A stretch of 64,000 bases of DNA from Halichondria panicea (taxonomy: Eukaryota; Porifera; Demospongiae; Suberitida; Halichondriidae): the NCBI RefSeq assembly GCF_963675165.1, contig NC_087393.1:3725502-3789501 (forward strand). The letters run 5' to 3'. Positions within the stretch are counted from its first letter, which is position 1; every line of letters begins with the position of its first letter. This document shows, one piece after another, positions 10,501-62,174 of the stretch. Under the pieces are notes generated by a model. That model saw only the letters and a list, made by a program, of their open reading frames with translations, had not been told where the DNA came from and did not search any database. The position numbers and the translations under genes are program-made.

Positions 10501-11574
10501 GAGCCAAATCAGCAGAAAATTTGATCCTTTGCGATCTAACTATTGCGCTCTGGCAAGGATTGTGTGTATTTACTAGTAATAATTTAAGTTTTGCGGATTT
10601 TAATGTTGCGAATTGATCAACCATCGCAAAGTTTGCAACTGTTTGATGCTCGTAAACATTCTAGTAATACAGTAATTAACTTTGTATGCGTAGCTAGTAT
10701 ACACGTGTACACTTACACGTAGCCTGGAGAACTAAGAATGGTAGGTTTAAGATATTTTGCACGTACAGTGCAGCTTTTAAAAAAGTTTCCTGGAGAGACT
10801 AGTGAACCCTCCGTGTGTGCAGTACCTTTGATCTCAATGGTGTCCACTGGAATAAGAGGTTCCCTCATGTGGAAGATGTCCAGACTGTAGCACAGTTGCT
10901 ATGGTGTGTGCACGCAGACAAAAATGAGTTCAAGTGCACTATAGTTTAAATGTGAGTTACAGTCAAACTCCCGAGGTCAATTGCACTCGTCATTTTGAGC
11001 GGTTACCATAACAACATACAGTGTAGTGTACATACCTTTCTGCTTTTGTTAAGGAAATGGTCAACTCGAACTGCCAAGAAATCTCCTTGCTTGTGCCAAT
11101 GCAGCTTGAACTGTGCGAGACCAAAAATTGTTACATGCTAACATTTGTTGGACTTAGTATAGCTCTTGTGCTGTGTGTGTGTGTGAACCTTAAATATTAG
11201 TTAGTCTATTAATCTAGCAACAAATCTGTCTACGTATACGGGCATCTATAAACCATCCTTCATCCTTGCAGGTGACAGTTATATAATACAGGCTGTAACT
11301 ATAGAGAAGGCTACACACTTAAAAAACATACACACGTACTCCGGCCCTTTCAAACCTTTTATCTCACTAATTTAATTATAGAGTCATGCATGCATGTACA
11401 CTACTACATTTGTGTGTGTACATGTACCTCAGAGACCAAGTGTCGACTCTTAGTGCTGAGCTCATTACGAGAAGGCATCTCCAGGACGATTATCTTGGCA
11501 GGGATTTGGCCATGTTCAGGCACCCAGTAGGCTAGATTGTAGTCACGAGGAGACCATGAGAAGTCACTGTGTGT

Positions 11575-11605
<31 letters not shown>

Positions 11606-16154: not shown

Positions 16155-16332
16155 ACTGGAGCACTAAAGAATAGCTAGACTTTTTAACACGTGGTCGTAA
16201 AGATGACCTTTGACCTACTGGTTAGGAACAGCAGCTTTGCAGAGAAAGGGGAGGGGCTGCATCGTATTCATTGCTACAGGTGGGTGGGGCACCTTGCTTT
16301 GCTCAAAGCCTGTAAACAGCAAACATCTCAAG
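16155..16332. promoter_or_regulatory. Divergent promoter, EIF3B / BAIAP2-like
   Basis: Only 178 bp separates the two start codons, so both 5' UTRs and core promoters must share this space or overlap. Contains GGGGAGGGGCTGC and GGGTGGGGCACC. No obvious TATA box. Confidence 0.6.
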
Positions 16333-23740: not shown

Positions 23741-26700
23741 ATGTCTAAGAAGGTGACGTTGGTGAAGGGCAAGAATAACATGATAGGGATCAGCATAGGG
23801 GGAGGGGCCCCCATGTGTCCAGTGCTGTACGTCGTCCAGGTGAGGCCTTTTCCCTAACCACCTGACTATACATATAGTATAATTATGTACATGTATGTAT
23901 GTTTTTGTTCAATTGCCTCTTTGCAAATAGAAAATAAAAAAAGTAGCTCTATGTCTGTATGCTTATACCCGTACTCCGAGCCGTACTCATTTACCCCACA
24001 TCCCTTTCACATAGCTACATTTTCACATAGCTACACACCGTTCTAAGTATGCGCCATTTCAATATAATTTTATGACACCATAATAGTGTGTTGTGTTATA
24101 CATAATTTACACAACATAATTTTTTGCCGTAAATCAAATAATGTACGGTATTCACATTACTCACATCATCCCCATACCCTTATATTATGCCCACCCTTAT
24201 ATTATGCCCACACTTGTACACTATCACAGTCTAATCTACATATATTATCACTCTCTCTATGCCCTCACACCTCCACAGGTGTTTCATCGTACCCCCGCTT
24301 ACGATGATGGCTCCCTGTGTCCAGGTGATGAGCTGGTCTCCGTGAACGGGGTCAGCTTGAAGGGGTTGTCCAGGAAACAAACAGCTGATGTGATTCAGGC
24401 AGAAAAGGTAGTTACATGTACATGTACAGACAGTGGTCGCACTCAATTTCATAGTCAATGATAATGTTACATGTACGCTTAGTTTGTGTAACATTTCTTG
24501 CATTGTTGCAAGAGTTGGTATAGTAATGCTTCCCTTGTAGGGTGAGATCACTATTGTGTTCAACAAGATTGAGCCTCCTAAAGGAAAGAGTATGGACATA
24601 GGTAAACCACATCATTGGCTGCACTGTACACACAGTTAGCTTTGTTTTATGGGCTGTAGCTGTTACAACACAGTCGACACTAATTTGTTCTGCCAACATT
24701 CATTGGTTAGCAAACTTCTAGACAGTATATATATACTTCGTTCATTCAACAGTTAGATAGAGAAGTGCTACATAGATAGTCAAACAATATACCTCGAAGC
24801 GCTACAAACACAAACACACACACACATGTACACACATACACACGCACAGCAATGAAGAAGGTGAAGCATCGGATAGTTGAGAAGATGAATGAAAGTACGG
24901 CTGACTCACTGGGACTGAGCAGAGCTGTCCTTGTCAACGGTTAGCCACACTATACCCACTAATGTGTACTCAATATTGTGAAGTTACTTGAAGGCCAGAA
25001 AAAGATTGCAATCACTTACGTATATACACTGCCCTTGGTATGAAATTCCTGTACAAGTGCATGTCAGTTTGTCAATACTGCCAGCCTATTAAGTATTGAC
25101 CCTTTCTTTATTTTATTTCCCAGACAAGCTTGTGGCTAAGGTGGATGCGCTGGAGAAGAATGCTAAAGTGTACAAAGGTGAGTACAGTGCGTGTCCCAAT
25201 TGAGTGCTGTATAGCTACTGTCTGGTTACACACATGCAGGGATTGCTGAACAGGCCCGCTCATTCCTGATCGGTGTGAAGGAGCTCACAATCACTCATAG
25301 AAGTGAGTAATGGAATTACCTTGGGCATGTGCTTTTTGTGTACACCCTTCCCCCCACACACAGCACACATTACTATAAACACATGCATGCTTGCAATAAT
25401 ATTAATACACCATATGTGTACAGATGTAGCCAGATATTTGCTTTCACTTTTAGTGGACGTAACTCATACTTGATGTTTACATTGTTGAATGTTGTACAAT
25501 ACATGTGACTGTCACGTGACCACCCTGTACAGAGTTTGGGGACGTGTTCAGCAGGGTGGGTGTGTACGAGATACAACAAAGTGCTAGTCTGGCATTCAGC
25601 AAGTTTGGCACTGCTCACAAGACGATGGCTGATGAAGGAATGAAGTTCATCGTCAACGTGGGACCAGTAAGTGAAAAATTGTACGTATAGCATTTACCAT
25701 TGCACAAACAGAATGAATTACGTAATTGCTGTGTGATTACTACCCAATATGAGCCATGCATGTGACTGTACGTTTGTTATAATTATATAGTCTCACGGCT
25801 GTAGCATGATGTATTCTAGCTCCTACAGTGTACCTTTATTTTTAGATACATGTATGGCACTTTAGAGGCTCTTTTCTTTCACTAGATGCTGAGAGAGCTG
25901 TACACCTTTCTGGAGAAGGCAAGCTACATCATACGTTGACTGTGTCTTACACACTCTACCTCACTATAGGCTGTTCCTGACACAAGGCTAACTCTCAAGA
26001 AGTACACCGATGCTAAAGTGGAGTTTCTGGTGAGATATATAATTATTACCCGAGGCGCGTGTGGGCAGCCACGGGTATAGTAGTACTTTAATTGGTTTGT
26101 TTGTCTGTTTGTTTGTGACAGGTGAATCTACTCACCTGGGTGCCATAGCACTGCGTTTACAGCATTAATAGCCTCCACACAGTAAGTAAAAGTGGAAGAT
26201 TTTGATGTTAGAGCAAACTAAAAAGCTTGAACTTGCACGTACGTGTCAGCTAGCTAACTACACGCAGCCTTTATTCGAGACAGATTACGTATTTACGGCT
26301 GAAGTGATCTCGTACCAGAAACAATGGAAAGGGTCACTAAAGTAGAAAGCTAGAATTGTGACTGGTTTGTTGTCTTAGGCTTCTTTGCTGACTCGACTCT
26401 GGATCCTAGCACCAGGACTTCAGGAGCCACACCTCTCTAAGACTCCAGGCTTCTTTGCTATGATCCTACATGTCTCAAATGCCACTAAAACTCTGTTTTC
26501 AAATGTTTCAGAATGCCTCCAGTCTGGTTTAGTTTTATTGCTTCTGAGTTACTGTGCTAGACAGCTCAGTCATACGATACATACTACATGCACTGCATTA
26601 TATCACTCCTCTGGTTCATGTCACCAGCCAGGGTTTGCACTTTAGTGCTCTAGTGATCATTGTACTTGATATAAAACCAAGGCTATTGTGGCTTCTATTT

Positions 26701-27731
26701 ATATGGGTTAATGTTCTGAGAAGGCATATTGAATAATAATTGTTGCAACCTATGAAGTATATTAATGGTGTACATTGTAGGTATACACGTGTATATGCAT
26801 GATGGTATCGCCACATGTGAAATGTGAATGTCTCACTCTCTGCCCTCTCAGGCCTATTGTCTCAAGGTCAAGGAAATGGACGACGAGGAGTACGAAGCAT
26901 CGGTGAGTACAATACAGTACATTTAGAACAAGCACATAAAATAATATTCCTAGTTTCTGATTTTTTTGAGCGAAGGTCACTACATACGGCTTGTGTGACT
27001 TGTAAAGTCGGAGCTTTGTAATGAGATGTGTACACTGTATGCATGCTCTGGATGTTAATGTCGTGACTTAACTTCTGTTTAATTCTCCCTGCAAGAGCTT
27101 TGGGCAGCCTCTGGTTCGAGTGCTGAACGGTAACGAGGTGTATCGAGTGTTCCTGCGTTGTCGTCATGCAGCCAAGCTGAGGTTCATCAAGCTACGCTCT
27201 GACGTGCTGGTCAAACTGCAGCTGCTGGATAACAAGAGAGGTGGGGATGTCAATGCAATTAGTATTATATGTATAGCAAACATGACTTTTATGCTCCGAC
27301 TCACAATGCTGATCTTCAGTAGTTGAGTTATCTCTTTAAAAATGTAGTTTTATAGTGTATAGTAGTCACTGTATATACGTGTATGTCATCACTCCTCCCC
27401 CCATCACATACCTACACACACAGTGCAAGATGTGGCGTTTCAACTGGAGAGACTGGTTGCTGGAATGTACGTTTACTACCGACAGTGTCACAAGATCATG
27501 ACGCCAGCGTGTGTGTTCCCAATTGAAGTCGAGTTGGGTATCAACCTTGATCCATATCGCTATGAGTCACATGACCCACCTCCGGTATCACCTGACATCA
27601 ACAAGCCAGAGGACATCGGTGTTGACGACCTACTCCTTCCATCACTTGCCACGCCCACAGGTGATATGAAGCCACACCCACCCAGCAGTATTGATGAACT
27701 GCTCTCCCTTCCTCAAAGCAGTGAACCATGA
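23741..27731 (+). CDS. PICK1: PICK1, PDZ and BAR domain protein
   Basis: Exons 23741-23839, 24279-24407, 24541-24601, 24850-24939, 25124-25177, 25240-25302, 25533-25666, 25886-25918, 25970-26029, 26852-26902, 27096-27240, 27424-27731; 408 aa, close to the usual length of about 415. The N-terminal PDZ (MIGISIGGGAP, VFHRTPAYDDGSLCPGDELV, VNGVSLKGLSRKQTADVIQ) is followed by the arfaptin-type BAR domain (GIAEQARSFLIGVKELT, EFGDVFSRVGVYEIQQSASL, EEYEAS, AAKLRFIKLRSDVLVKLQLL) and an acidic/Pro-rich tail. PICK1 binds PKC-alpha and receptor C-termini and bends membranes in vesicle traffic. Intron 8 (25919-25969) starts with GC (AAG|GCAAGC), a GC-AG intron. Intron 9 is enlarged by a dispersed repeat. 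Confidence 0.95.
26052..26790. repeat. Dispersed repeat, about 0.7 kb (PICK1 intron 9)
   Basis: Related to 12632-13395 (see there). Starts near GAGGCGCGTGTGGGCAGCC, followed by GTTTGTTTGTCTG-type repeats. No coding capacity seen. Confidence 0.7.
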
Positions 27732-30966: not shown

Positions 30967-33900
30967 CTAGCTGTGTATTGTTTGTGCACTAGGGGGTTGT
31001 TCATCATCATCTTCTGTGTACGATTGTCTCTGTGGGTCAGGTGATGCCAAATGACTGTCATGTGACACAGATGGGGAGTGGCCTGATTCAGGCTTAGAAA
31101 TTACTGATGCATATGTTTGCTGCTCTGTGGAAGGAACTGATGTGCTCGCAAGACCTGCCGTTGGCTGTGTGTGTGGCATGCGTTCTCACATTAGTTAATT
31201 GCATTTCAACAATATAATAATTGCGCGTGCATTATAATTATACATGATTGTATACCAGCTGTATGTACGCTAATTACATGTGCACTGTCCCAACAAAGGA
31301 ATTGACTGCATGCATGGGTTTGGTTCAACTACAGCAATTGGTTGAACCTACCTCGCCTATACCCAGGAGCCCATAAATGATTATGGCCTACACGTACTGC
31401 CAGGTGTACTCTTGGTACTGTATATACTTACTGTATGTAACATAATTATGAGTTCTGTATGTAAATATGTAGTTCTGACTAAATTTATTTGTTGCTGAAT
31501 GAGCTGAGTGTTCGACCTATTTGTTGTTGTTGTTAATGTAGCTGTAGAGTTTGTTACTATAATAGCATTGTGTGCCTTAAGCCCACAGTTGTCAGTGAGC
31601 ATGTGATGTCAGATACAAACTTTTATAGAGTATGAAGTGATCAAAATGGTTACTCACTACGTCCTCTCCGCCGACAAGTCTGAACTCCCGGTGGTACTTG
31701 CAGTCCCCTCCTTCACGGGGATCAATGTCCCCCATGTGGAGGGACCCATCGGATGTGGCCACTAACACTCTGTGAACACCCTCAATACTGCAGCATGGAG
31801 GGAAGAAGATTGTCACTAGCTATAAATTAAAGATGGCATTATGAGTGTAAAGTACAATTGCATCATGATAAAACAATAAAAATAACAAGTTCTTTCCCTA
31901 TTACATGCCTATTCCAAACATAAAGTTCCAGGGGGTACATTAGCCTCGATCCTAGGCCGCACTTCCTTTGAGAGTGGGCCTGGTATCGACTGCTTGCGCA
32001 AGCACTAATCATTAGCCAGATACTGGCTAACGCAGGATAACAACGTGTATGCTCAGTAAAACAATGACGTTACAACATACATTGCACAACTGTAGGTGGC
32101 AGCCATTGAATGATTAGCCTGTAGGAAGTTAGACACACTCACCTTACAACACTGCACACACTCTTGAGACCTGCAGCAATGGAAGCACACACATCACAAC
32201 AGGGTAAATTAATACTCAATCATTTCCCTACTAATACAATCACAATCACTTTCGGTGGCAGATTCAGGCGGAGATCCAAGGGAGCAAAGAAATCCTCACT
32301 TTGCGCTGATTGATTTTTAGCAATCTACAGTCATTTACAGTTTTGTTTCACCTATTCTACTTATGGAGTGATGTCAATACCTGCGTGTAGTCCACTCTAG
32401 AACAAACAGAAGCTAGATAAAAGCAGTGGCAGTTTCTACACTTCTTTCTACACTGATCGCATTGCAAACTCTGCAATTATTGGTAAAGAGATGGAATTTC
32501 CCACATCCACATGGGCGGATATTGAACCGGAAGTGGGCGTAACCCCTAAAAGTTCGCACTCCGCCGGGGAGAATACTTACCCTACAGGCTCGTTGCCCTT
32601 TAGGAACCACCCTTTTCTAATTTCTGGATTTGCCACTGAAGATATGTACAGAAGCTGACATACACGCACCCAATAAGTTTAAGTATGGGTAGTAACCAAA
32701 TAAGGCTAACCTGATCGTGGTAACTTAAGGTGTGCAAATGCTCTGATTTGAGTGAATGCATCAGTCATTTGGGAGGGCAGAATTGCAGCAGGGGAGAGGG
32801 TCTTGCTCAGGTAGCTGAACCAACCTTGTTGACCCTCTGCTGTTCTGTGTATGTGTGTGTGCATTGCATAAGACACAATACTTACGCTATTTCCCTAACA
32901 CATTATTATTAATAAACTACCACAAAAACACAACTAGCCTAAGCAGTAGGGGACATACTGTACATGTGTACATTTCTAGAGGGTGTCTACAGTACTAGGT
33001 GTGGTATGAACACAGGGGGCATACTTCTCTTGTGGGGGCTCCACTAATCTGAACACGTGCACTGTCTCTGTGCTGCTGGAGGAGGCTAGGTACACATCGT
33101 CAGGGCTGAACGCCAGACAGTTGATATGGATAAACCTGCAGCAAATTGCCAATCATTAGGAGCAACACACACGCACACATTCAAGCTCAATGTACTCAAT
33201 GTCCAGTTTTGGACCTAATAACATACTTACATGTACAACGCATGTGAATCTGACTAAAAAATAAGTGCAGTAAAAGCTTTTACTGCACCTATTTGTACAC
33301 TTCACGTAGACTGAGGTGGGTACCATAATTCTATAATGTCTCTGTAAACCCGGCCTTAGCTCACCTCTTCATACCTCTTCTGAACTCAAACAACCTCTCT
33401 CCTTGTGGAATGCTGAACACACGGATCACAGTACCCTGCACGTGGTGGACATGCACAGTAGTTGTAAACGTTTAGAATTCACATATACAACACAGTGATG
33501 AGGCATGGGCACACACATTGGGGGACAATACTACCATTATTCTTGAATTACAGAGCCACAAAAAAAAATTTACATGATTTTCCAGTGGCGAACAAATCGA
33601 ACAAGGACAAAATTGTACTTCGACACTTTGTGCTGTTTATCCTCCTTCACTGGCCTCCCCCCCCTAAAGAAAAGGCCTGCTACTGACTGCTTGCGCACAC
33701 GCACATACACAGAGTTATATAATAGCTAGCTAGCAAGAGACAGAGCTGTATATCTGCAGCAGCAGTAGTATAGTAGGCTTTTACCAAAGTTAGTATTAGA
33801 TGGGCGTGGCCTGTCCATATAGGCTCTTGTCAGCTTTCACTCCGTTCAGACGATTGTCATCCACACTGTTGCTGGCTGTGAGTCTTTTGTTAACATAGCA

Positions 33901-36013
33901 GGCTAAGGGTAGCTATTAGAATACTATCAGATGGGCTAGAAACCTTCAATCGAACTTTCTATCTACTTCCTTCAATCCACTTCCATTTGTTGTGACGTCA
34001 TTGTTTTACTGAGTATACACGTTGTTATCCTGATTAGCTGGTATCTGGCTAATGGTTAGCGCATGCGCAAGCAGTCGATACCAGGCCCACTTATCGAGGA
34101 AGTGCGGCCTGGGATCGAGGCTAAGTGCCGCTTAGCGATAGAACGTAAAATAATAGTAGTTGTTCCACGAGATTATAACAGACAAAAATTAATCTATATC
34201 AGTGAGCAGTTCTACTATGTATACACCATGACCTGTTTGTTTTGATAGGTCAAGTGGCACTTAGCAACAAGCTATTGACAATGTGTTGTTTGCAACATAA
34301 ATGAGAAAATGTGCATATAATTATAATAGAGACCAGAGATACACTCACTGTTGCTGAGGCTGACGCTAATTTGGTTCCTGTGGAGTTAAAAGTGAGGGCA
34401 GCAAGAGGCGAGTCGTGGGCTGGAATCACAGCCACAGCCTTCAGGTTCACAGCATCAAACACCTGGATCTCACCATTCTACAGGATCACAGACACGTACA
34501 GTACACAATCATCATTGGGACAACCGTTACTTTAGTGAACACATCAACAGAATCAATGCACGCAAATGTTATACGTACTCAGGAGTACATGAACTCCTGA
34601 CGTACAACATGTGTACCAATATGAACAGATTTATTTACAGATAAGATATTAGATAAACGCATGTGTAGCAGAAACTTGCAAGGACTATCGCTATGGCCTT
34701 TGTTAAGGAACACACAGTGACACATGCAGAATTATTGTATCACATTTCTTTCTACTGTGGTTTGCTGGCATGAGCTAACTCACCTGACTGCTTCCAGGAT
34801 ACGCTATAAATCCGTTCTCGTTGTCAGCAGACAGTGCACACAATCCTACATGTACGTATGAGACGCAAAAAATATCACGGTGGAACCTCCAATATATGAG
34901 CAAAGTATAAATACCTCTCTACAGAAGAACAGTGTTTGTCTTACTTTCCTACGAACACAACGTTACCATTGTAGTGTATAAAATATCGGACCAAAGGACA
35001 AGCTCTCTACAAAGGACAAAACATTAATTTATGGCCCCCAAACAGCACACTTCACTCAGTGAGTTCGCGAAGAACATTGTTCCCATTCAACAGACAGCTG
35101 CTGCACTGACCTGATGCATTCTTGGGAGTGTCTCTAATGGTGTGCATGACCTGGTGTGGTATTGAGGGTGTGGTGAGCAATGAAAGCTAATGATTGATAT
35201 CCCACTCACTTTCATATCTCTGATGTTGTGTATGTACAGATTTTGACGAAGGACCACCACCAACCTCTGTGTGCGTGTGTGTACGTGAAAAACTCATATG
35301 AGGAATTGGCTCTTTGCAGTTTTTTAGACAGTGAGTTTTCTAACCTGTCTGCTCAGCTTCACCGAGAGAATCGTATCCGGGTAACTGTATGTGCATATCT
35401 CTGAGTTTTTCTGCAGAGAACAGACAGTGTGTATATACATGTAATATGTCCCACTAGCGGGGCATACCTTAAAGTGACAGACTCTTAGTTTCCTGGGGTT
35501 ACTGAGCTCCACCATGGCAACAAGACTGCTTGAGAATAACCTCTCAATTATACACACTTCATGGCCTCCATCTGAGGAAGAAAGGACACATCACATCAGC
35601 TTCATAGGTAGAGAGGAAACAAGCATACTAAATATATCAGAGGAACAACTTTCATGCACATGTATACAATGGCGGCTACTAGTTTTATAGATATGGATAC
35701 CAATGTTTTCCATAATGGTTCCTTATTCTTACAAGAATGTGATAGACTGAAAAGATTACCTTTCTCAAAGCTGGGCTCAATATGCTCTGTTGAGGTTAGG
35801 GGGTACAGTTTATAACCAGTCCTGACACCCACAGAAATAGATCTGTTTGGATAGTGGGCGTGGTCAATAGTACACACCTTTTATACAAACTGTACACGCA
35901 GTAGCATTCAGCATTCAGGTAGTAATGAATGCATGCACGTACGTTACATCTTGGTTGAAGTTGATGTAGAGAAGTTCGGAAGATAACTCTCCAGCCTCTT
36001 GCGACAGATTCAT
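30967..36013 (-). CDS. WIPI2: WIPI2 / ATG18-type PROPPIN
   Basis: Exons 36013-35943, 35842-35760, 35571-35468, 35410-35345, 35266-35210, 35150-35111, 34845-34784, 34477-34349, 33435-33365, 33135-33025, 32844-32711, 32170-32143, 31787-31658, 31164-30967; 427 aa with matched phases. A seven-bladed beta-propeller is indicated by [56 protein letters not shown] and [20 protein letters not shown]. The PtdIns3P-binding Phe-Arg-Arg-Gly motif is present ([10 protein letters not shown], across the exon 9/10 junction). The C-terminal tail is Ser/Pro-rich and acidic. WIPI2 binds PtdIns3P on the phagophore and recruits ATG16L1 for LC3 lipidation. The e1/e2 junction uses donor GTACGTG after GATGTAAC, giving NQDVTSISVG. 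Confidence 0.95.
31941..32070. repeat. Inverted repeat arm 1 (WIPI2 intron 12)
   Basis: About 130 bp. Reverse complement matches 33995-34123 closely, for example CTTGCGCAAGC, AGTCGATACCAGGCCCAC and GAAGTGCGGCCTRGGATCGAGGC. Confidence 0.8.
33995..34123. repeat. Inverted repeat arm 2 (WIPI2 intron 8)
   Basis: Partner of 31941-32070. The arms bracket WIPI2 exons 9-12 and could pair in the pre-mRNA. Confidence 0.8.
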
Positions 36014-37563: not shown

Positions 37564-40500
37564 CTACTCCAGAAGCCTGAGTACTTTACCAATAGCAATC
37601 GTCTTGCCTGCAACAATACAAAACCATACATAGTAAACTGTGTCAACAGCTGAGTCATCACACGTCCAAGAAATTGTTACATTAGACAATGGTGTTGTAC
37701 CAACATGGTACCACGTTGACATGGTGCTACTACATTAGGCTCTGGTGAACTATATAAGTACATAATGTATGATTCAATCATTTTAAGGGACTAAACTGCA
37801 AGATTCAACAACACCGGCCCAGTACAGTAATAAGGAAGGAAGATACATGTGCATGTAAAAATTTCATTGTTCAAGGGCTGAAAAACTTCATGCCAGCTTA
37901 GTCTACAAGTATTACAGCTACCACACTATATACATACCTTCATCTCGTAAGGTAAATCTTGCCATTTGAGGAAATTCTTTGAATGTTTCCAGACAAATAA
38001 CTCCAGCTGTCTCCAATACTGCCAGGACAACCTGGTCTTGTTTCACAAATCTTGGCCTTTGGGATGCTTTTTTCCCTGTCTTTCTGTCAATTAGAGCCTT
38101 AAGTTGCTACAATGAGAGAAATCAGTATAAACATTCTTGTTGTAAACTGTAGGTACAACAAAATTAATAGCAAAGTACGTGCATAATAGGTACAGAGATT
38201 GAGCACAGTAACTGATAAATATCACCCATTAAATCATAGATAGAGTAGTAACAGGGATTGGAAACGAGATCACGTGCGACAATGACTCCAACGTTGCCTC
38301 TTGAAACCATCCGCGTTTCGGTTCAGAGTGCAATAGGCAGTGGGCGTTAACCTGTAGCAACTAAAACCATGCTAAAACTCCTCTTCTCCAGCTTCTAAAG
38401 TTGGGCTGGGCACAACCCAGCCTATAAACCTCTTGTGGTCATCATTTGGAACCACATTAGTTGTGAATTTGTTCAAGTTTGAGTTTCAAGACGATCCTAC
38501 AACACTTTGGTGAGTTTTTATATGCTTTTTCTCCCTAGAACCAGAGTTTAAATAATCTTTAACCTAGAAAAAGTATAATAGTGTTTCCATTAGTGAGCCA
38601 CAATGGTGTTGATTGAAAAACATGTGTTGCTGATTTCAAGTATCAACTATGCTAATTGATTTATGCGTTTATTTGTACCTCTATGCAGAGGTAAAGAGGT
38701 TCTAATTTCACAATTTTTAGTTATAGGCCAAGCATAGGAATAGGTTCATCGTAATGTCTTATTTCTATGCATTCTTGTGAGAAGTTACACCTTGCTCAAT
38801 TCAGTAGGTAAACGTTGAACATGTCGACCGTTTGTGTATGCAGATATGCCTTGAAGACCCAAATTCCAACATCACCAGGCAAATGCAAGAAAGAAACAAC
38901 TTCAGAAAGATTATGGGATGCCTATATAAGTCATAAAGAACACGAGTAGACAAAGAAAAATTTGTTCGTAGTTTTTGTAAATTTTCCATATAAGCTTCAA
39001 TTCAGTTTATAATGTCATAAATATCACAATAATAATGGCCAACAGACAGTTGATATTTCCAAATGGCCAACAGGCATAATAATATATAATTCTGCCTTTA
39101 TAGAGCCTATAGTGTCTCCAAAGGAGGGTTTTGCTCAATCTGGCTGATGCTACAAGCTCTCCCCTACAGCAGGTATACAGGAACGATCGCATTTGCTGCT
39201 CATCAGTCCTGTCTTCTGTCTTCTTGCTACTCATAGCCAGCCACCCTCGGTATAGCCTCGATTCAAGCCTGGTAGCCTGGTTTCAAGGCTTGATCATATA
39301 CATGACGTCAACCGAAACACGGATGGTTTCATCCTGTTCTATTGCGTTTCCAATCCCTCTTCCTCCTCTATCTATGATTAAATAGGCCTTTTTACTCAAC
39401 TAACCACCCACCCACACTTACAATGAGATGAACCTCCTCTACCACTGAGTGTATGTGCATTATAGCACTGTAGCCGGCGCAGATGATGGACTTGTGCTCC
39501 AGGACTGCAATCTGGGCCTCAAACTTGTTGCCAACATGACACGGGGAGGAGGGGTCACACAGGACGAAACCGGGAGAGATGTCCTAGTGGTAGTACAAGA
39601 ACAAACGTTGTGCATGAAAAGCCGTGATCGTCTAGAGGTTAGGACATTACGTTGTAGCCGTAATAACCCAGGTCACGTCTTTTTTTTACAACAACAAAGC
39701 TACAAGAATATTCAGCAGAACAGATCTTAGACAAGAAGTGATGTGTATACTCACCTCTTCCTCGATTCCTTTTAACCGCAGTTTAATGTTGTCCCCAGAG
39801 TAAGCAGTTGGTACCTCCTCCTCTACTCTTAACACACTTAGCACTTCCACAGACACCTGTACACCAGCATACACTCATAACACAATTCACCACAATGGAC
39901 AAGTGTATACACAATAGCACAACACAAACAAAGCTGAAAATTACATACACACTGTGATGCACACTCCACTTACTCTATTTGGCATGAGCAGTAGGATAGA
40001 CCCCTTGGCCACGCCCCCCGACTCCACCTTCCCCATCACCACTGTGCCCATGTCCTGTACAGGTAGAGCATTGGGTTATGAGCACTGTAATCACATGAGC
40101 ATGCTCAATACACAAAATACACATGCACTTATAAGCCAACCAAATATACAAGTACATTTTTGATCCCCAGTCTATACATCTGTATACCGATAAGGCTTTT
40201 TGTGCATGCAATCTCTACACCACATTATCCGACATTGATACTTAATTCCTACCTTGTACTTGTCTGCTATGGGCATTCTAAACGGTCCCGTATCTTCCCT
40301 TGAGATAAGCGGCAGGTCGTTAAGGTAAGTGATGAACGGAGGACCGCTGCATACAAAGAATGACAAAATGTTAAGTAGAAAAAACAATTGGTACACAGTA
40401 TCCCTGAAGAGAACCGTTTCTATTTCAGTGTTACCAGCTCACCTGTACCAAGGGCATGTCTCATCAGAGATGGGGTCCTTGAGATTTGCACCGGTTAAAC

Positions 40501-43500
40501 CCGACACAGGAAGGTAGTAGATATCTGGTGCAGAGAAAATTAAGGACATTTATGTACTGTACTGTGCATTGGCAATACACACCCTAACACTAACAATTTT
40601 CTGAGATCGACTCACCAGTTTTTGGGAAGCCAACCTTCTTGAGGAAAGGCGTCAGTTTGTTCTTACACTCTTCATACCTGGAATGGAAGGTTATTAATGT
40701 ACAAGCTAGTCTGAGGGCCAGACCTAATAGCTCGGGGACAAATCAAGTAGAGCTAGGATTAGGTCTGGAGACTCTTGCAGCATTTCCGTGTGCTCTAGCG
40801 GAATGTGGACAGAGCCAATGAAATGCATATCCTATGTCATGTGATTTTTAACCCAATGAAATACAAATAATTATTGCATCTGTGGAATTTGGATACAGGT
40901 AATGAAATGAGAGTATTGCTACATCTACTCCTTCTTTATAACCTCCAATATCACAGTCTCCGCCCTATTGACAATCCAAGAGCACATGGAAGTGCTGCAA
41001 GAGTCTCCAGACCTTTTCTCTTCCCCCTCCCCCCTCTGAGAAAAGGTCTGGCCCTCAAACTATGTTACAAGCTAGCACAAGTCATTATTATGAGTACAAG
41101 GAACACATCAACATGTATAAGAGAGGAGAACTTAAGTATGGTCTACAGTACTTTGCTTTTGTATATGTAACACTTACTTCACACTGGCATAACACATAGA
41201 ACACTCATTATAATAATGGATGACATGCCACACCCACCTTTCCTCTGACCACTCGACTGTGGGGTCGTCCATCTTGTTAATGAGTACCACGAGATGTTTC
41301 ACACCAGCTGTCTTCGCTAACATGGCATGCTCTCTACAGAAATAGAGGGCATTGCATTAAATAAGCCAAACAGCAGAAAAATGTAATGTTTCAATCCCTA
41401 AAGAGACTGGAATTGACAGATAATTCAGTATAGATGCACCCACATGAATGTACAATGTACACGAGATTTGTACTAGCTACATGCACTGTTCCAGTAGTTT
41501 ACAGCCTGTTTGCAGGGAGGGTGCCACAAGCAGGTGAAAAGCTACCGAAAAGTTTCTCTGCCCCTCTTCCAAAACTCAGAGTCACAACCACACGCAATAA
41601 TAGTACATGAATGTGATCGACAGTGAGCATAACATGAGGGGACACACCCACAATAATTATTATCAATACCGTATAGCGGGGAATTTTCAGGAAGGGGGGT
41701 CAAACATTTGTAGTTGTAATTTTAGAGTATATATTTTGTGGTTGCTTGCACTGCAGGTAAAGGTGGTCAATGATTGCTTCATTCGTGGGTAAAATACTTG
41801 AGCTCAGAGATTCAACAACGCAACTTTGTTTGTGATTCATTGAATGTTGCGAATAAATCTAAACCTACACCATAGATACTGTACACTCCGGAGTGTACAG
41901 TATCTATGCCTACACAGACTAAAATAACTTGCTTCAACAACATAGTGACAATTTAACAACAGTGACTTTAATTGCAGCTCCCAAGCTCCAAACAATATTT
42001 ACACATTATCTCCAACCGTACCTGGTTTGACCCTTCCTTTCGAACCCTGTCTCAAACTCTCCCTTTCTTGCTGATATCACAAGTACCCCGATGTCAGCCT
42101 GGGCTGCTCCACTGATCATGTTTGGCACAAAGCCGGCGTGACCCGGAGCATCTAAGATAGTGAATCGCTTCTGTTCTGTTTCAAAAGACGCTCGGCCAAC
42201 CTCAACAGTCTTGCCCTGCACAGTGTGAGAGAGTGATAATCACCTAAAATTATGTCATTACACAATGATGCATGAATACTACACAGAAGTGGAAAACGTA
42301 TCACTCACAATTGGGGAATGCGAGTATAATTACTTGAACGATAGAGATTTACTGTATGCAAAGGCACGTTGTTTTTGTCCAAAACACTGACACCGCGCAA
42401 TTAATAGTCACAATGAACTCTTTGAACCCACTAGCTAATGTAACAGTATATTATATGTAGATGCACTGTTCCAGTAGTTTACAGCCTGTTTGTAGGGAGG
42501 GTGCCACAAGCAGGTGAAAAGCTACCAGTAAGTTTCTCTGCCCCTCTTCCAAAACTCAGAGTCACAACCACACGCAATAGTACATGAATGTGATCGACAG
42601 TGAGCATAACATGAGGGGACACCACAATCATGCTAAGCCTTGATTTATGATTCTGTATTTGCAATAAGATACAGCTACAGGGATTTTCAGAGTTCTTGCA
42701 TTTGCAATGTCTAGAGCAGAACTGTCCGCCCTGATATTTTTGCGACATTTTCAAGTGATCTACATTGAATTTGTTGCTGATCACGTGCAAGTCATGCAAT
42801 AAGACAGGTATTTTCGCTCAGAAGCAAGAACTCAGAAATTTGATACTAACCACCTCTAATTAAAATAACCACAACTTAGGTCTAGTTTTTACCACACGAA
42901 ATACGGCAATTCAGGATTGCACCACTCTGATGCTACCACAGCTACCCACCGGGCCCTATGTTGGCACCACAAGGCCTATCCACCCACGGATGCACCTCGC
43001 ACCTTGTCCCTTTCCTCTTGGTTGGTATCGAGGGCCCAGGAGAGGTACCAAGTCTCTCTGTTTTTCTCTTTGGCTTCTCGCTCGTACTTTTCCAAAGTCC
43101 TCTTGTCCACTTGTCCAGTCAGGTACCTGGATAATAAAAGCAGTGCTCACAAGGCGAACTAACCAGTACACGTACTGCATGCGTACGTTCCAGTTAAGAG
43201 AGGCACCCCAAAAATCAATAAGTTCAGAATGACCTTTTTTTGTGTGACACAGCTTTAGAGGTTAGAGGTAATTACATGAATTCTCACGTACATTAGATGA
43301 CCTCCAATGGTAGACTTGCCAGCATCAACGTGACCAATGAAGATTATGTTCACATTCTCTTTCTCATCTACAGCCCTGGGTGCCACTTGCATGGACAAAG
43401 ACTTTGCAGAGTCCACTTTAACCCCTTTGGGCTTGCTACCGTTCGTTGCTTTCGGTCTTACTTCCTCAATCGATTCATCTTTTGCTGCCTCCGATGTTCT

Positions 43501-44504
43501 TTTTTTGTCCGAGTCAGAGGTGACCTCTCCTACTGAAGTAGCTACTGCTGTGGTTTTTGGTGATTCAGATGGCGAGTCATCTTCAGCTATATCCTCCCAT
43601 GAGTCGACCGGTTTGGGTTCAGGCGGAGAAATGGTGGGTGTGGTCTGAACAATAGTGGGTTTCGTCACAGTGTGTCGAGGGGGTTCATTAAATGGTTTCT
43701 GAGGTGACTGATCAGATACACCTGCACTAGATGCTGGGGTAAGGAAACAGACCGTAATGTCATACAGGTGTATAAGGAACAATGTATGTCTACACAACAC
43801 ATGTAAAGGAACTGTTCACTTCGTTCAGCAACACATCTAGAAGACTTTATTGTGATCTCTACCAAGATACCCTTACCTGGGAACGGCTCTTGGTTAGGGT
43901 GTGAGTGTTGGGGTCCCTGCTGACTGCTTCCATGCATGGCAGCTTGATGCTGCATCATGTATCCACCTCCTGGATAGACCGGACAAAGGTCAAATCATGT
44001 ATTCAATTGCACAACACCACTGCAATACATACAAACTAATTGACACTTTAGGAAAGAATGAAAGTTTGACCCTGTGCATTCTAATACTTGGCAAGCTTGG
44101 CCTTGAGGAAATTAACGACGTTAGACAATTAACCTACAATGCAAACCTACGTGGAGGTATCATGTTAGGTTGCATGTACATTCCAGGGGGGCCTCCATAC
44201 ATTTGTGGGTGATGACCTAAGGAAAATAGAGATCATACAATTACTCAATTGAACACTGAATGTGTACGTATGAAACGTGAAAACTTTACATTTACATACT
44301 GAATTGTGAGAACGTACCACCATGTACAGGGTATCCACCGGCGTACTGAGGAGAGTAGCCAGGGGGCATGCCATGGCCGCCGGGAACGAATGTTGGAGCC
44401 TGGACATTGGGTACGAAGGAGTTGGCGTTAATGTTCATCCTTCCAAACTGTGCATTATAGTCGAATGGCATTCTGCCCGGTCCTCCAGCCTGATCATTGG
44501 ACAT
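37564..44504 (-). CDS. GSPT1: Peptide chain release factor eRF3 (GTP-binding)
   Basis: Exons 44504-44318, 44216-44151, 43969-43877, 43733-43292, 43126-43003, 42215-42022, 41333-41238, 40677-40616, 40524-40443, 40346-40253, 40054-39974, 39856-39755, 39583-39422, 38106-37938, 37607-37564; 665 aa, phases consistent. The disordered N-terminus holds overlapping PAM2-type PABP-binding motifs ([20 protein letters not shown]) and Gln/Pro/Gly-rich sequence. The G domain has GHVDAGKST (G1), DAPGH (G3), NKMD (G4) and SGLTGAN (G5). The two beta-barrels follow, ending [14 protein letters not shown]. eRF3 is the GTPase partner of eRF1 in translation termination. Residues after the G3 His read Ala-Gly-Phe where I recall Lys-Ser-Phe in vertebrates. 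Intron 13 holds a 1.1-kb transposon, and exon 6 is bracketed by direct repeats. Confidence 0.95.
38234..39377. mobile_element. TIR transposon, second member of the TCATAGATAG family
   Basis: Ends TCATAGATAGAGTAGTAACA and CCTCCTCTATCTATGA with imperfect inverted similarity running about 100 bp inward (both sides contain GGGATTGGAAACG and GAAACCATCCG). Flanked by TTAAA at 38229-38233 and 39378-39382. At 1144 bp it is larger than 7261-7796, but no transposase motif is seen. Lies in GSPT1 intron 13. Confidence 0.85.
41481..41655. repeat. Direct repeat downstream of GSPT1 exon 6
   Basis: About 170 bp, almost identical to 42461-42629 (ATGCACTGTTCCAGTAGTTT through ACATGAGGGGACAC). Only a few substitutions and small indels. 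Confidence 0.9.
41669..41860. mobile_element. Half of a CCGTATAGCGGG-type element
   Basis: The left terminus after TA resembles 27871; the body has similar TTGTGGTTGCTTGCACTGCAG words in related order. No right end found. Confidence 0.45.
41871..41908. repeat. Perfect 38-bp palindrome
   Basis: The first 19 bases (CATAGATACTGTACACTCC) are followed immediately by their exact reverse complement, with no loop. Lies in GSPT1 intron 6. Confidence 0.95.
42461..42629. repeat. Direct repeat upstream of GSPT1 exon 6
   Basis: Partner of 41481-41655, same orientation, 980 bp apart, in the adjacent intron. Confidence 0.9.
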
Positions 44505-45109
44505 GGTGACTTCGAGGGACAGGAAACAGTTCACTTGGGTAGATCTATACCAAGCTTCTTGATGTATTGATGTCTATGTTAACAACTGTCCTGAGTCAGT
44601 AGATCAAAGGCAGATCAGCTAGCTAACTTCAATTAAAAGCTAGAGACGCTTCAGGAGATTGCTAGACGTACCTGCGCCATAGCAAAAGAGACGGCCACAT
44701 GTTTCGCTCGCAGTCACGTGGCTTGGTTTTGCGTCGGCGATCCTTGACATTCTTGACATCATCTTACGTAACAGATTATCTGCCAATTTAATATCGAGAG
44801 TTAAATTTAAAGCAGAGAAAACAACTCTGCAGTTTTAGCTTGAGTAAGAGACAGTGTGTGACTTCCCTCTCATCGGCCCTGAGTTTTTAGAAGTAGGTAA
44901 TCGGCAACTCCTAGATCAGAACAGACATAGATATAGAGTCTTAGAGATAGATCTAGCTATGTGCATCATTTAGAAAACTCATTGTTTATTTTGATAGACA
45001 GTCCTTTAGTGAAGGTATACTGTATGTAAGTCTGACTGATTGTAGTGCCTAGCTCTGTATGTTATAAAGTTTGAAGAAACTCTATTTATTTCTCAGGTAA
45101 GAAACCAAA
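44505..45109. promoter_or_regulatory. Divergent promoter region, GSPT1 / HAPSTR1
   Basis: 605 bp between start codons. Contains GTCACGTGGC (an E-box, CACGTG) near 44715, next to a GC-richer patch with GCGTCGGCGATCC. Either 5' UTR may contain an intron. Confidence 0.5.
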
Positions 45110-46454
45110 ATGGCCGAAGGTCGTGGTGATCCCCCGGCCATTTTCACCCCTCAAGAGGAGGAATACATTCGCGAATATGAGGAAAATGGGGACATTGATC
45201 AACAGCTCCTGAGGGACAAAGACGTTGCCTCTCAGAAACTATGGATGTCCTTCCAAGACTCAGCCACTGCTGTGGCTCATCTTTTCAGAGGTAATTCTTT
45301 CACTTTGTTTAACAGATTTTTGAATAGGCACTGACAGTGTACAAATAATTATTTATGTATGTTGTGGAGCATCGTTATTTATAATACACACACACGCACT
45401 CAGTAGCGAAGTGCTGAATGGTATAGTGTATTAACAGATAGTTGTGCGCCTTATGTTCATTTTGTGTGATCACCGTCAGCTTGTTATTTATGTGTGTGAT
45501 GGTCATGCCCAATTACGTGACACGTGTTCATTATCCACAAGATCTCTTCGATGGTGCCCAATCTTATTTGATCACTTATTGGCATTCCTGTCCATGCAGA
45601 TTGTCAGTACCAAGCTGGAGTAAAAGCTTGGGTGCCTTTCCATGAGAGTGCTAGTGCTGTAACTCATCTATATAAAGGTACAGACTATAATAGAAGCTTA
45701 AAACGGTCTACTCTAAAAAGTTGGTTACCCTCTATGATTCAATTTATACAAGTTGTAGCAAGTCACCTCTGTGCTACAGCCACTGTTGGTCTACCCAAAA
45801 AGTGTGTCGTCTATAAACAGGTTTAACCAAGAGTTCATAAGTTTCACTGTAACATTTTTGTAGGTGTTTCCTTTTTATGTGTATTTCAGCTTCTGTAAGC
45901 TATAATTATTTTGTATGTGCACTAGCTCCTTATCTGCTCTTAGCCTCTGTGGTTTGGCGGTGCTTTGTAGTTAGACTTGTATTGTAGTTGTTGCTCGTGT
46001 ATTATTCTGACGTACAAGCTGTACTCCCTCTTTAGACTCCGTGGATGTGTGTCGGCAATGCTGTGATTCAGGAATAAAGTATGGACAACGAAAAAGAACT
46101 AAAGAAATTGTATCGTGGGTTAAAAGAAAACGCAAACATATCAAGAGAGAAGAACTGCTAGCCTTTCTCCTGGATAAGCCGTATTCAGAGTCCTCTAAAC
46201 ACGAAGATTTTGAGCCATCTGTTGGGCACCAATTAAGTGGGTTGTCACTGGGTCACATGTGTCCATCTGGAATAAACCATTACCAATCCCCGTCGTATCC
46301 GTCCCCGAGTGTGTCTCCAAGGAGAAGACTGTGCAGAGAAGACAGTGACGGAGAGACTGTGGTCAATTCTAGCGGACGGAAACGATCAGCAAACAGCAGT
46401 AGTCTCGATGTGGAGTCTGGGTTTAGCCCAATTGCTAAACGTATAAGACTGTGA
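45110..46454 (+). CDS. HAPSTR1: HAPSTR1 (C16orf72 / UPF0472) homologue
   Basis: Exons 45110-45290, 45600-45677, 46036-46454; 225 aa. The core carries the two SATAVAxLYK-like repeats: KLWMSFQDSATAVAHLFRD, then AWVPFHESASAVTHLYKDSV. The basic segment QRKRTKEIVSWVKRKRKHIK precedes REELLAFL. The C-terminal half is Ser-rich with basic clusters (SPRRRLC, RKRSANS, AKRIRL) that could be nuclear signals. The vertebrate protein is a nuclear HUWE1 partner in stress signalling. Start ATG 45110 sits in AAAATGG. Confidence 0.93.
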
Positions 46455-46864
46455 TTGTGTTATTTATTGTTACTATAGCTATTATGGCATCACATGAATT
46501 TTGTTGTTCAGTCATTTACCCTCGATCATGATATAGATCTGCTGATTCAAAAATACTACCCCGGTATGATCAGTTTTTGAAGTATGGCCCCGCGATATAA
46601 AATTATGGTGTTAATTTCTGTTGAAGTCATAAAAGCTGTGTGGTCTAGGGGCGTGACCAACTATGGTTTTCAGTAAACAAAAATAATGGGTGGGGCTCGT
46701 TTGCACTTTTTGAGGTTTTGCCAGAATCTCTAAAACAGCAGCTCTAACCTTCTGCTATTTCTGTAAGAGCTCACAGCAAAGATATCTAAGACAGTTAGGT
46801 GTATGTAGAGAGTGTAGGTTAGATACACAGCAGGTGATCAAGCTATACTACAAAAGTGGTTCCA
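46455..46864. other. Short spacer, HAPSTR1 / USH1G-like
   Basis: 410 bp between tandem plus-strand genes. No other feature seen; it must hold the HAPSTR1 polyadenylation signal and the promoter of the next gene. Confidence 0.5.
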
Positions 46865-48216
46865 ATGTCAGACACGCCCACATTGTTTGCTCCTCATCAA
46901 GCTGCGAAAGAGGGTAACCATCCTCTTCTCAAGAAAGCCAGCAGGAAGGATGTTAATAGAGGGGATCAAGATGGATGGACGGCTATGCACTGGGCAGCCT
47001 GGAATGGGAATCCAGAATCACTCAAAATACTTATTTCGAAGGGGTAAGTCGACATGTACGTAGCTCATCTCTTTTAACAGTGCAGTAGACTACTACACTA
47101 GCTATTAAACAAGATGCCATGATAGCTAGATCTACTGCATAATTATGTACTATTATTGGGACTAGCATTAAAAATACAAACATACCATGTTACTAGCTAG
47201 AGCTGACACACATGTTGAATATCTAGTACACTATAAAATCCACCTACAGAGGAGAGGTTGACAATCCTGATAACAAAGGAAGTACTCCACTTCACATTGC
47301 AGCAACATATGGCCATGAACAAGCACTGGAACTGTTAATCGGCAAGAATGCAAATCTGTTTGCACTGGATAATAATGGCAGGACAGCTGCCAAAGTGGCT
47401 GCTTCCCACCAAAAAGTTGATTGCTGTCGATTCCTCGATACTCTGGGTGTCCGATGGGAAGTACAAAACCATGAGCTTGTAACAAAGCTTAAAAAGAAGG
47501 CAATGAAGGATCTTCAAAAACGAACAAAGAAGGTTGGTGAGTCAAGTGGCACACGAACACCAGCTTCATACGACTATTCAACTGCTCCTTCTGGTCTCTC
47601 TGGAAGCCCTCGAAAGGCTGCAAGACCTCCGCGTCCATCTTCCGGTGGCCCTACCGGAGGAAAGGGTGCCAAACTATCTCTGCAAGACGCGCTTCGTCAA
47701 AACTTTGAGCTTCGTACAACAGACTCCACGGAGAACATAGGCGATGGTGGACTAGGAGCAAGTAATAGTGCAACCGAGCTAAATTATCCAGGCTCAGGCA
47801 GCAGTACATTTCGAACAGTACGTCGACCAAACCAAGGGCCTCTCATTAATGCTCTCTCTGGACTACCACTTAAAATTGAAGCTGACGATGCAAAAAATGT
47901 ACCCGGGGCTATAGTGGCAGGTTCAAACTCAAATGGACACCGATTACCAAGTATGCAATTAATTGGATCCCAAGCTACTTCCTTCAAAAACGACTCCCCA
48001 CTCTCAACCTTCCTGCATTCATTGGACCTCGTTGATTACGTCGAGAACTTGCACAAAGAGAAGCTGGATCTAGAAGCACTTGCAATGTGCAGAGAGGAGG
48101 ATTTGACTAGCATTGGACTTCCTCTAGGCCCGCGAAAGAAGATTTTAAATGCTATTCTTAAAAGACGTCGAATTATCGCTAGTCCAAGCAAGAAAATGAC
48201 TGAGTCAGAATTCTAG
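46865..48216 (+). CDS. Ankyrin-SAM scaffold, USH1G (Sans) / ANKS4B family
   Basis: Exons 46865-47043 and 47250-48216; 381 aa. Three ankyrin repeats (DGWTAMHWAAWNGNPESLKI, KGSTPLHIAATYGHEQALEL, NGRTAAKVAASHQKVDCCRF) precede a Lys-rich segment and a Ser/Gly/Pro-rich middle. The SAM domain at about 315-365 reads SPLSTFLHSLDLVDYVENLH, then KLDLEALAMCREEDLTSIGL, then PLGPRKKIL. The C-terminus, Thr-Glu-Ser-Glu-Phe, has the form of a PDZ ligand with Phe last. Vertebrate USH1G and ANKS4B organise Usher/brush-border complexes with myosin VII and harmonin at actin protrusions. A single ancestral gene serving both roles is plausible here. It is shorter than USH1G (about 460). Confidence 0.9.
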
Positions 48217-48544
48217 ACATGCATCACTTAAAATAATAGAGAAAAAGGAACTCATCTGTTTTGTAACCTATAGTTAATTCTACTTGCTATTAAATTATAT
48301 TATGTGTATACTGTACTAGCTACATGTTTAATGTCTTTTTTTAATACTGAGATTTAGTTATGTGTGGACAACATGGTTTTACAATTAATGCACAGAGTGA
48401 AATAAGTGACCAAAAGTTGAGCATTGTCTTGATACGACACAGCAGAGTTATGATGGCACACATGTGTATACTACATGTATTATACAAAAAGTAAGAGCCA
48501 AACTTAATACCTGAAAGATGTAATTGGCATGACATGTATTAAAG
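48217..48544. other. Convergent 3' spacer
   Basis: 328 bp, AT-rich, between the USH1G-like stop and the USP7 stop. No gene seen. Confidence 0.5.
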
Positions 48545-59821
<11,277 letters not shown>

Positions 59822-60290
59822 CGTCTTCCTCCAGTCTTGCTTGTGTTCTCTCTTTTGCTTGCCTGCTTCCAGTGGAAATACTTTAATTGACTTCTTAGCT
59901 AGCTTGAGACGAGACAGTAACCCGTGGCTATTTGTCTTTCCCCGAGAGCTCTTTGAGGGAGCTAAGTTTCCTGTGACTTTAGAGCCGAAAGAAATCGTAG
60001 TCACAGGATCTTTGCTGATCTTTACACCGATTTTGCTTTACTAGTACTCGAAGCAAAAAAAAAAAACAAGATTTATCTTGGCGCTTGGTCTTGAACATGT
60101 GCCACTAGCAGTATGGTAGTAATCGTCAAAATAATAAATCCTAAATGAACAGTAACATGTACACTTAGCCTCGAATTCAGACCGATTAAAAATTAATCAG
60201 CCTGGATTCGGCCTGGATTCGAGGCTAATGTACACTGTGCATGTATGCCAGTAATATAAAGTTTTTGCCTGCCACTGTTGTGCATAGTAC
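59822..60290. promoter_or_regulatory. Divergent promoter, USP7 / METTL22
   Basis: 469 bp between start codons. An A-rich tract lies at 60055-60067. The sequence GATTCGGCCTGGATTCGAGGC is partly palindromic around 60180-60222. No TATA box ass­igned. Confidence 0.5.
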
Positions 60291-62174
60291 ATGGCATCCT
60301 CAGTAGGTGATACTTTCCTTTCCGACGTACACGTTGGAACGTTTGGATCATTATCAAATCAAGTTAGTCATTAATTTATGTATATTCGACTCGTACTATA
60401 AATAATTTCTCTCTATATACAGGGCACCCTTATTACACGATTTATTTTCCATCTGCAAAATAATTCTTCATTAGACTTCTTTTCTGACGATCAACCTACT
60501 GAAGACGTGGATGGAGACATTGAAGTCGCTAGAAGATCATCTCTGTTTGAGAACGGAGTACTGAGCATTGGTAAACAGCTCTGTGGCAACTCATTGCTTT
60601 GGGGGCCCAGCATAGAACATTGTTTTGAGAAAGAAACCCCTTGGTGCAGTTTAAACGTTACAGCAACTTGGTTAGGACTTAATTGAAACACCTATCTGAG
60701 TACTGGCTTTCTAATTGGCACAGGCTAATGGTTGATTCTCGCTTGTTGTAGTGGGAAGCCTGTATAGATAACCTACTCCAATCTCTTGTAAGTATATCTA
60801 CCATGAGCCCTCAGCTTTAATGGTACGTCTTCACAACTCACACATGTACATACGTTATGCAAGGTGAGATGATTTCCATCCTCATACCCCCCTCCCGTGC
60901 ACAGAGCATGCCATGTCAACCACACTTCCCAATGTGGGACTGCAAGTGTGGAGAGGAGCACTACTAATGAGTGATTACCTACTGGCTCACTCGGAAAGTG
61001 TAGAAGGAGCCATTGTGCTGGAGCTGGGGGCTGGCACTGGGCTGGTTAGTCTAGTTGCAGCCATAGCCGCCGCACAGGTGTTCTGTACAGGTCAGTAATA
61101 ATTGTCACAAGTATATCTTATACATTTCTTCTTACATTAACTGATGACTGTACTGTGTCTGTACTTTTCTGCATTTTGATGCAGACACTGGTAAAGAAGT
61201 GATGGAAGTATGCCAGCGAAATGTTATTAGGAATTCTAATGAAGTAACTGGAAATGTGTTGGTGAGGGAAATCAATTGGACACAGCCATTTGTCAGTTCC
61301 TTATCTGGTATGTCGCTTTCAAGACTGTCATGTTGTTGTGGACGTTTACTTCGTGAGAAATTGATTAGCTATAGGCGATTATCGCCTAATTAATATTGCA
61401 TCATGTGTTACACACAACATATACAGATTGCACAATTCCTGAAAATGACTTGAGACAACTTTCTATGGCTGATTACATTATCGCCTAATTTGCATCATGT
61501 GTTACACACAACACAACATATAATTACTCAGTGTGCAAAACATTCTATATGCTGGGAATACAGATAGCACAATTCCTGGGTGGACAGAAAATGACTTGAG
61601 ACAACTTTCTATGGCTGATTACATTGTTGCCACTGATGGTACATACATACATGTACATGAAGATTATTACATACATGTATCTATCTGGCTGCATGTATAT
61701 AATATTATACTCTACCTATACACACACATACATCTGTTGGCAGTGATATACAGCGACAAATTGACCGATGCTTTCCTGTCTTGCTTGGCCCAACTTCATT
61801 TTAAACTGAACAAAACTCCTACTATATTGCTCGCATTTGAAAGAAGGTATATATGGCCCTTGCATATATAATTACAGCGTAGGAAATTTAGATCATAGGC
61901 ACCGTGCAGGCGTAACTGCAATTATTATGTCACATGTGTTTGTAATGAATACACCCTATGTAGAATAAACTTCACAATAGAGGACTTAGCACCTGTGGCT
62001 CCAGCATACAATCATTTTATGAGTTGCTTGGAAACCATGTACTCGACTGGCAATAATGGAGTGGCTGTATCGTTCAAAGCAGAGCAACTCTCAACAGAAT
62101 TTGAGCAATATTTCGAATACAAACGTGTTAAAGAATTGGTGAGTGCTATAATAATTATCGCAACAACTATATAG
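60291..62174 (+). CDS. METTL22: METTL22-like protein methyltransferase
   Basis: Exons 60291-60362, 60423-60570, 60905-61090, 61185-61307, 61564-61638, 61744-61846 and 61964 onward. The N-terminus (FLSDVHVGTFG) and acidic DVDGDIEVARRSS match the family. The Rossmann methyltransferase fold shows EHAMSTTLPNVGLQVWRGA, SAM motif I LELGAGTGLVSLVA, then VMEVCQRNVIRNSN and YSDKLTDAFLSCL. Family members methylate lysine in KIN17. The end is uncertain: at 62138 a good donor (TTG|GTGAGT) follows VKEL, but no clear downstream exon was found; reading through gives a stop at 62174 and 305 aa. A decayed copy of exon 5 precedes the real one. Confidence 0.85.
61427..61488 (+). pseudogene. Decayed duplicate of METTL22 exon 5
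   Basis: After an acceptor CAG at 61424-61426, sequence nearly identical to exon 5 (TTGCACAATTCC, GAAAATGACTTGAGACAACT) lacks the GGGTGGACA segment and meets a TAA at 61486-61488 without a donor. Its flanks (GCATCATGTGTTACACACAACA) are repeated too, showing a local tandem duplication of about 100 bp. Confidence 0.8.

Follow-up and report, generated by a model that had tools for sequence, protein, structure and literature searches.

In the BCnS ancestral linkage groups (ALGs), the genes of one sponge chromosome map to few chromosomes elsewhere, whatever their order, and demosponge chromosomes carry ancestral linkage groups (PMC10232365). Local neighborhoods common to animal phyla have been described as metazoan microsynteny blocks (PMC8851819). 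The PDI-RhoGDI pair presents unrelated, interacting housekeeping genes neighboring over deep animal time, with human pairs at 17q25.3, 16p13.3, and 12p12.3 and a linkage dated by the authors to the cnidarian-bilaterian ancestor (PMC5722932). In this study, a 64,000 nt stretch of the Halichondria panicea genome (contig C17, positions 3725502-3789501; hereafter, the window) was analyzed, in which GSPT1, HAPSTR1, a USH1G/ANKS4B-type gene, USP7, and METTL22 lie within 24.6 kb. In our judgment, this five-gene cluster is quite probably what locally remains of a single ancestral animal chromosome, within which genes have been reshuffled slowly.

The locus shares with the BCnS ALGs the conservation of linkage irrespective of order; it differs in its tightness, on which the ALG concept is silent (PMC10232365). 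The PDI-RhoGDI pair is reported to be unlinked in sponges, unlike USP7 and HAPSTR1 here, so the USP7-HAPSTR1 linkage would be older; co-regulation was tested for PDI-RhoGDI, whereas the present comparison concerns gene order alone (PMC5722932). In contrast to the metazoan microsynteny blocks (PMC8851819), the five-gene block has been traced in a single invertebrate. A literature search, covering mostly titles and abstract starts and with supplements outside its range, returned no invertebrate report of the USP7-HAPSTR1 or the five-gene linkage, and an earlier report is quite possible.

Gene Content of the Cluster

Contig C17 has a size of 5.74 Mb and accounts for 4.4% of the 131.5 Mb genome, which comprises 39 contigs. 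Thirteen gene models were obtained for the window with a small gene finder, for which conserved exons served as the training set; METTL22 was missed and USP7 was split by the finder, and exon-by-exon splicing was used for USP7, HAPSTR1, and METTL22. Orthology was assigned from Pfam profiles and best PDB matches, and human sequences of METTL22 and HAPSTR1 were used for alignment. According to the spliced models, the order from left to right is GSPT1(-), HAPSTR1(+), USH1G/ANKS4B-type(+), USP7(-), and METTL22(+). The initial annotation had placed these five genes within 25 kb, and all five were recovered at nearly the coordinates it had claimed. The coding ends are separated by 605 bp (GSPT1 and HAPSTR1), 410 bp (HAPSTR1 and the ankyrin-SAM gene), ~330 bp (the ankyrin-SAM gene and USP7), and 469 bp (USP7 and METTL22). 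GSPT1 and HAPSTR1 are arranged head to head, the stated distance being that between their start codons, and so are USP7 and METTL22, while HAPSTR1 and USP7 are oriented with their tail sides inward and the ankyrin-SAM gene between them. A shared (bidirectional) promoter for USP7 and HAPSTR1 is ruled out here by this orientation.

The GSPT1 (eRF3a) gene (37564..44504, minus strand) was modeled with ~14 coding exons, its start and one exon being set by eye, and its product matched Pfam GTP_EFTU (1.4e-48). Against PDB, eRF3a reached 731 bits and outscored HBS1L (352 bits) and EF1A (342 bits), so the latter two identities were rejected. The best NCBIfam models, among the best 25 of 30 families, were of EF-1-alpha types, all below the cut-off.

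The HAPSTR1 (C16orf72/TAPR1) gene (45110..46454, plus strand) consists of three exons and matched Pfam TAPR1-like (1.8e-37). Both matches of this family in the entire genome fall inside this gene, which indicates a single locus. No relative was found in PDB by sequence at an E value of 0.01. Two tandem half-repeats (KLW..FQ.SATAVA.L and AWVPF..SASAVT.LY) each occupy their own exon, at 45110-45290 (exon 1) and 45600-45677 (exon 2). The residues F90, A93, A94, L100, Y101, and G119 have been reported as perfectly conserved (PMC9834230). Five of the six are kept here, with A93 replaced by serine, as judged by eye on the alignment to human HAPSTR1.

The USH1G/ANKS4B-type gene (46865..48216, plus strand) has two exons and encodes 381 aa with ankyrin repeats and a SAM domain (Pfam Ank and SAM). 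Since the ankyrin repeats swamped the full-protein PDB search, the SAM part was searched alone and matched USH1G with 64 bits and ANKS4B with 58 bits, the next match having 22 bits. Judging from these scores, the gene appears about equally near to USH1G and ANKS4B, as would be expected if it were older than their split. The protein ends in SEF (48205-48216), compatible with a PDZ-binding tail of class I such as that of USH1G.

The USP7 gene (48545..59821, minus strand) was modeled with 39 coding exons, with AG/GT at the internal borders and the last-exon acceptor revised by hand, and encodes 1105 aa with a MATH-UCH-ICP0_bdg-USP7_C2 architecture. The product matched PDB USP7 with 1193 bits over 1041 residues (65-1105), and the next family, USP47, reached 174 bits. 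Thus, the four domains expected of a USP7 orthologue are all present and PDB USP7 ranks above the other USPs. Both genome-wide matches of PF12436 (ICP0-binding) are located in this gene, indicating a single locus.

The METTL22 gene (60291..62174, plus strand) was joined by hand; its core methyltransferase exons (60908-62139) are secure, while the N-terminal exons and the 3' end are uncertain. The model matched Pfam Methyltransf_16 (lysine methyltransferase, 5.5e-21). In PDB, METTL21-type and other relatives were the sole matches, with METTL21C the best. By score, the protein is nearer to human METTL22 (38% identity over 226 aa, 157 bits) than to METTL21-type proteins (54 bits), the two scores coming from different programs. 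At 61385-61560, a METTL22 intron contains what seems to be a degenerate copy of the exon that follows (61564-61639), recognized by eye.

Linkage in Vertebrates

Human GSPT1 lies at 16p13.13, ANKS4B at 16p12.2, and USH1G at 17q25, and human USP7 and HAPSTR1 are arranged head-to-head. For the other genes, a published list of ~5 Mb of human 16p includes A2BP1, C16orf68 (METTL22), ABAT, TMEM186, PMM2, CARHSP1, USP7, C16orf72 (HAPSTR1), and GRIN2A (PMC3084265). In chicken, a 1.05 Mb region of chromosome 14 contains METTL22, C16orf72, USP7, NUBP1, and others (PMC11050503). Of the human 16p linkage proposed in the initial annotation, the part concerning METTL22, USP7, and HAPSTR1 is therefore found in print; its statement that HAPSTR1 is next to USP7 in human agrees with a report describing human USP7 as "directly adjacent" to HAPSTR1 (PMC11148184). 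Closeness is thus observed in two distant lineages, with five genes in 24.6 kb here and METTL22, USP7, and HAPSTR1 within the ~5 Mb human list. The linkage is common to sponge and human, and the exact gene order is not; the orientation probably differs as well.

Distribution of Related Genes along the Contig

Pfam families representing human 16p13 or paralogous arms were used as probes, hand-picked by the positions of the human genes. The probe count covers four of the six chosen families, with ABAT (PF00202) and RRN3 (PF05327) outside it. For three of the four, the top match is on C17. Both matches of the FPL domain (CLEC16A family) are located on C17, at 5.29 Mb. The 14 ParA matches are spread over C17, C10, C13, and C9, and the best of them lies on C17 at 4.29 Mb and was read as NUBP1 from its translation. 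Two of the four SUN domain matches are on C17, at 2.79 Mb, and the others are on C12 and C15. The only PMM family match is on C2. The probability of finding at least three of the four probe families on C17 by chance is ~0.002, with several loci per family allowed for. Unrelated orthologues therefore share this chromosome above the expectation from its size for three of four probe families in a small hand-picked sample. In human, NUBP1 and CLEC16A both lie at 16p13. In the sponge, NUBP1 and the CLEC16A-family gene are 0.5 and 1.5 Mb, respectively, from the five-gene block. The genes of human 16p13 are thus dispersed over C17, with clustering limited to some of them.

Exons of a further USP-family gene occur ~2 kb from NUBP1 (C17:4287980-4296494). 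A USP31/USP43-like gene was recognized by eye at C17:774809-780084; USP31 is on human 16p12, which would fit the same ancestral chromosome.

Origin of the Cluster

The linkage is far above the whole-genome random expectation, the corresponding null giving ~2e-6 (9,000 families assumed). Under an in-chromosome null, the probability that at least four of the eleven window genes come from the human stretch is 0.00005-0.05 per window, uncorrected; this model takes the ancestral chromosome to have had 150-600 genes, of which 12-20 belong to the human stretch, and one of the eleven genes could not be named with confidence. Since the window is a striking one picked among ~2,000 of its size, tightness beyond shared chromosome ancestry is suggestive only.

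That C17 also carries NUBP1 and the CLEC16A-family gene argues for descent of the five-gene cluster, and this contig and human 16p probably go back to one chromosome. The ancestral chromosome would persist in the sponge as contig C17, and its human descendants would include 16p (plus 7p22, 17q25, and 22q13). Genes would rarely leave this chromosome and would mix slowly inside it, and some neighbors may have stayed close by neutral inertia. The BAIAP2-like/PICK1 pair and the EIF3B/WIPI2 pair, the latter at human 7p22, which also occur in the window (described below), fit mixing within one chromosome. We infer descent rather than re-assembly, and the local tightness would need no selection. From the gene identities, the linkage itself, and the occurrence of NUBP1 and the CLEC16A family on C17, the linkage is likely to be older than the sponge/bilaterian split, as had been proposed. 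Chance survival, named in the initial annotation as one option, is the leading explanation when placed inside a conserved chromosome.

Several points weigh against descent from one conserved chromosome. The counted probes are four of six chosen families, picked by human position, and the linkage-group evidence for C17 consists of probe genes. The PMM match lies on C2, although PMM2 stands between METTL22 and USP7 in the human list. The PMM gene (C2:1395562-1396221) is one open frame of 263 aa in a single exon; retroposition may have produced this copy, with subsequent loss of the original gene. Moreover, the genome of one glass sponge is described as heavily rearranged (PMC10232365).

Among the alternatives, selection on USP7 and HAPSTR1 survives best. 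The suggestion that the genes of the cluster do not obviously share a function proved wrong for this pair. Among the genes co-essential with HAPSTR1, USP7 ranks second in strength; it also binds HAPSTR1 and promotes its stability, an action that opposes HUWE1 and TRIP12 (PMC10921065, PMC11148184, PMC9225015). In the proposed module, the deubiquitinase USP7 stabilizes HAPSTR1, which in turn enables the nuclear localization of the ubiquitin ligase HUWE1, and selection would keep USP7 and HAPSTR1 linked as one dosage-sensitive unit, the linkage matching copy number or expression; we regard this as a rather doubtful account of the cluster. It agrees with the interaction data from human cells, with the adjacency of the two genes in human, and with their co-amplification in up to 7.6% of cancers (PMC11148184). 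In the H. panicea genome, a DUF913 domain is present on C13, and an alignment with PDB USP7 shows the same residues at D164-W165 and D762/D764. These USP7 residues are docking sites and DUF913 is HUWE1-type, and both observations would also suit such a module. Conversely, USP7 docking-type motifs in HAPSTR1 do not exceed their frequency in shuffled sequences (5 vs. 5.4 and 1 vs. 0.9 expected), so a physical link in the sponge would be hypothetical. The pair is interrupted here by the ankyrin-SAM gene, its orientation is probably unlike the human one, and 0.2-0.7 adjacent human pairs per window are expected by chance under the shared-chromosome null. USP7 was reported to alter HAPSTR1 stability strongly in human cells but its steady-state level little (PMC10921065), and the selection argument draws on a single non-vertebrate genome. 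That matched dosage has kept the two genes near neighbors since before the sponge split, independent of orientation, is thus unlikely.

Coincidental re-assembly, in which the genes were joined independently in both lineages, is improbable. The in-chromosome null leaves some room for it, as the tightness is modestly unlikely per window and the number of available windows is large, but the whole-genome null and the location of NUBP1 and the CLEC16A-family gene on C17 favor descent.

A genomic regulatory block, in which enhancers of one gene sit in its neighbors and forbid rearrangement, is the least probable account and leaves the "shared regulatory DNA" of the initial annotation unsupported: the local clustering does seem old and cis-regulatory constraint has been described for the Wnt5-7 animal gene neighborhood (PMC8851819), but the gaps between the five genes are 330-605 bp, the strands are probably unlike those in human and the gene order is unlike the human list (PMC3084265), and the Pfam scan of the window proteins (10, then 3 more) recognized no developmental regulator, whether transcription factor or signaling target, with two proteins lacking a family over the cut-off and the models being incomplete.

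If descent within an ancestral chromosome is neutral, the cluster illustrates clearly how slowly genes are shuffled there. If selection does hold USP7 and HAPSTR1 together, deep gene order can flag functional modules, and the tumor co-amplification of the two genes would reflect a very old arrangement. Gene order in this sponge would then already hint at the USP7-HAPSTR1 link, which came out of human screens published in 2022-2024 (PMC9225015, PMC11148184, PMC10921065). At least 11 chromosomal sponge assemblies have been published, which makes the choice between selection and neutrality directly testable.

Other Genes of the Window

A second vertebrate-linked pair was found upstream of the cluster. 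The BAIAP2-like gene (IMD and SH3; 16203..18736, plus strand) is a tentative assignment from an imperfect model with sub-cut-off Pfam matches to SH3 (8e-5) and IMD (9e-4); a search with 247 of its 317 aa matched the BAIAP2 IMD in PDB (9e-6). The PICK1 gene (PDZ and Arfaptin/BAR; 23813..27731, plus strand), with an uncertain 5' end, matched Pfam Arfaptin (4.6e-27) and PDZ (2e-7) and the PICK1 PDZ in PDB (2.8e-15). The two are separated by one unnamed gene with a sub-threshold START match alone. In cattle, PICK1, SLC16A8, BAIAP2L2, and PLA2G6 are neighbors on chromosome 5 (PMC12071107), and BAIAP2L2 and PICK1 lie within 1 Mb at the SLC16A8 locus of human chromosome 22 (PMC6994629).

An EIF3B-like gene (4515..16154, minus strand) is represented by two partial models and was named by eye, with matches to RRM (4.9e-7) and an eIF2A/eIF3B-type propeller (1.5e-12). 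The WIPI-family (PROPPIN) gene (32005..36013, minus strand) matched PROPPIN (1.1e-73) and was assigned to WIPI2 by eye. In human, EIF3B and WIPI2 are both at 7p22. Because the BAIAP2-like/PICK1 and EIF3B/WIPI2 pairs share the window with the 16p genes, the window seems to sample a single ancestral chromosome with vertebrate copies on 16p, 22q, 7p, and 17q. In addition, a POT-family (SLC15-type) transporter gene is present at 28173-30016 (PTR2, 1.8e-21).

Two near-alike tandem genes, apparently encoding a membrane protein, are located at 891-2131 and 8736-9868, the first without a Pfam family over the cut-off. The left flank on C17, ~28-58 kb before the window, carries an array of similar genes with a zinc-finger-like start (CVICLAV...HGEC), TRAF/RING-like by eye. 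At the other end of the window (63200-64000), long open reading frames begin, and further to the right, there are four of ~1,330 codons with a common start sequence.

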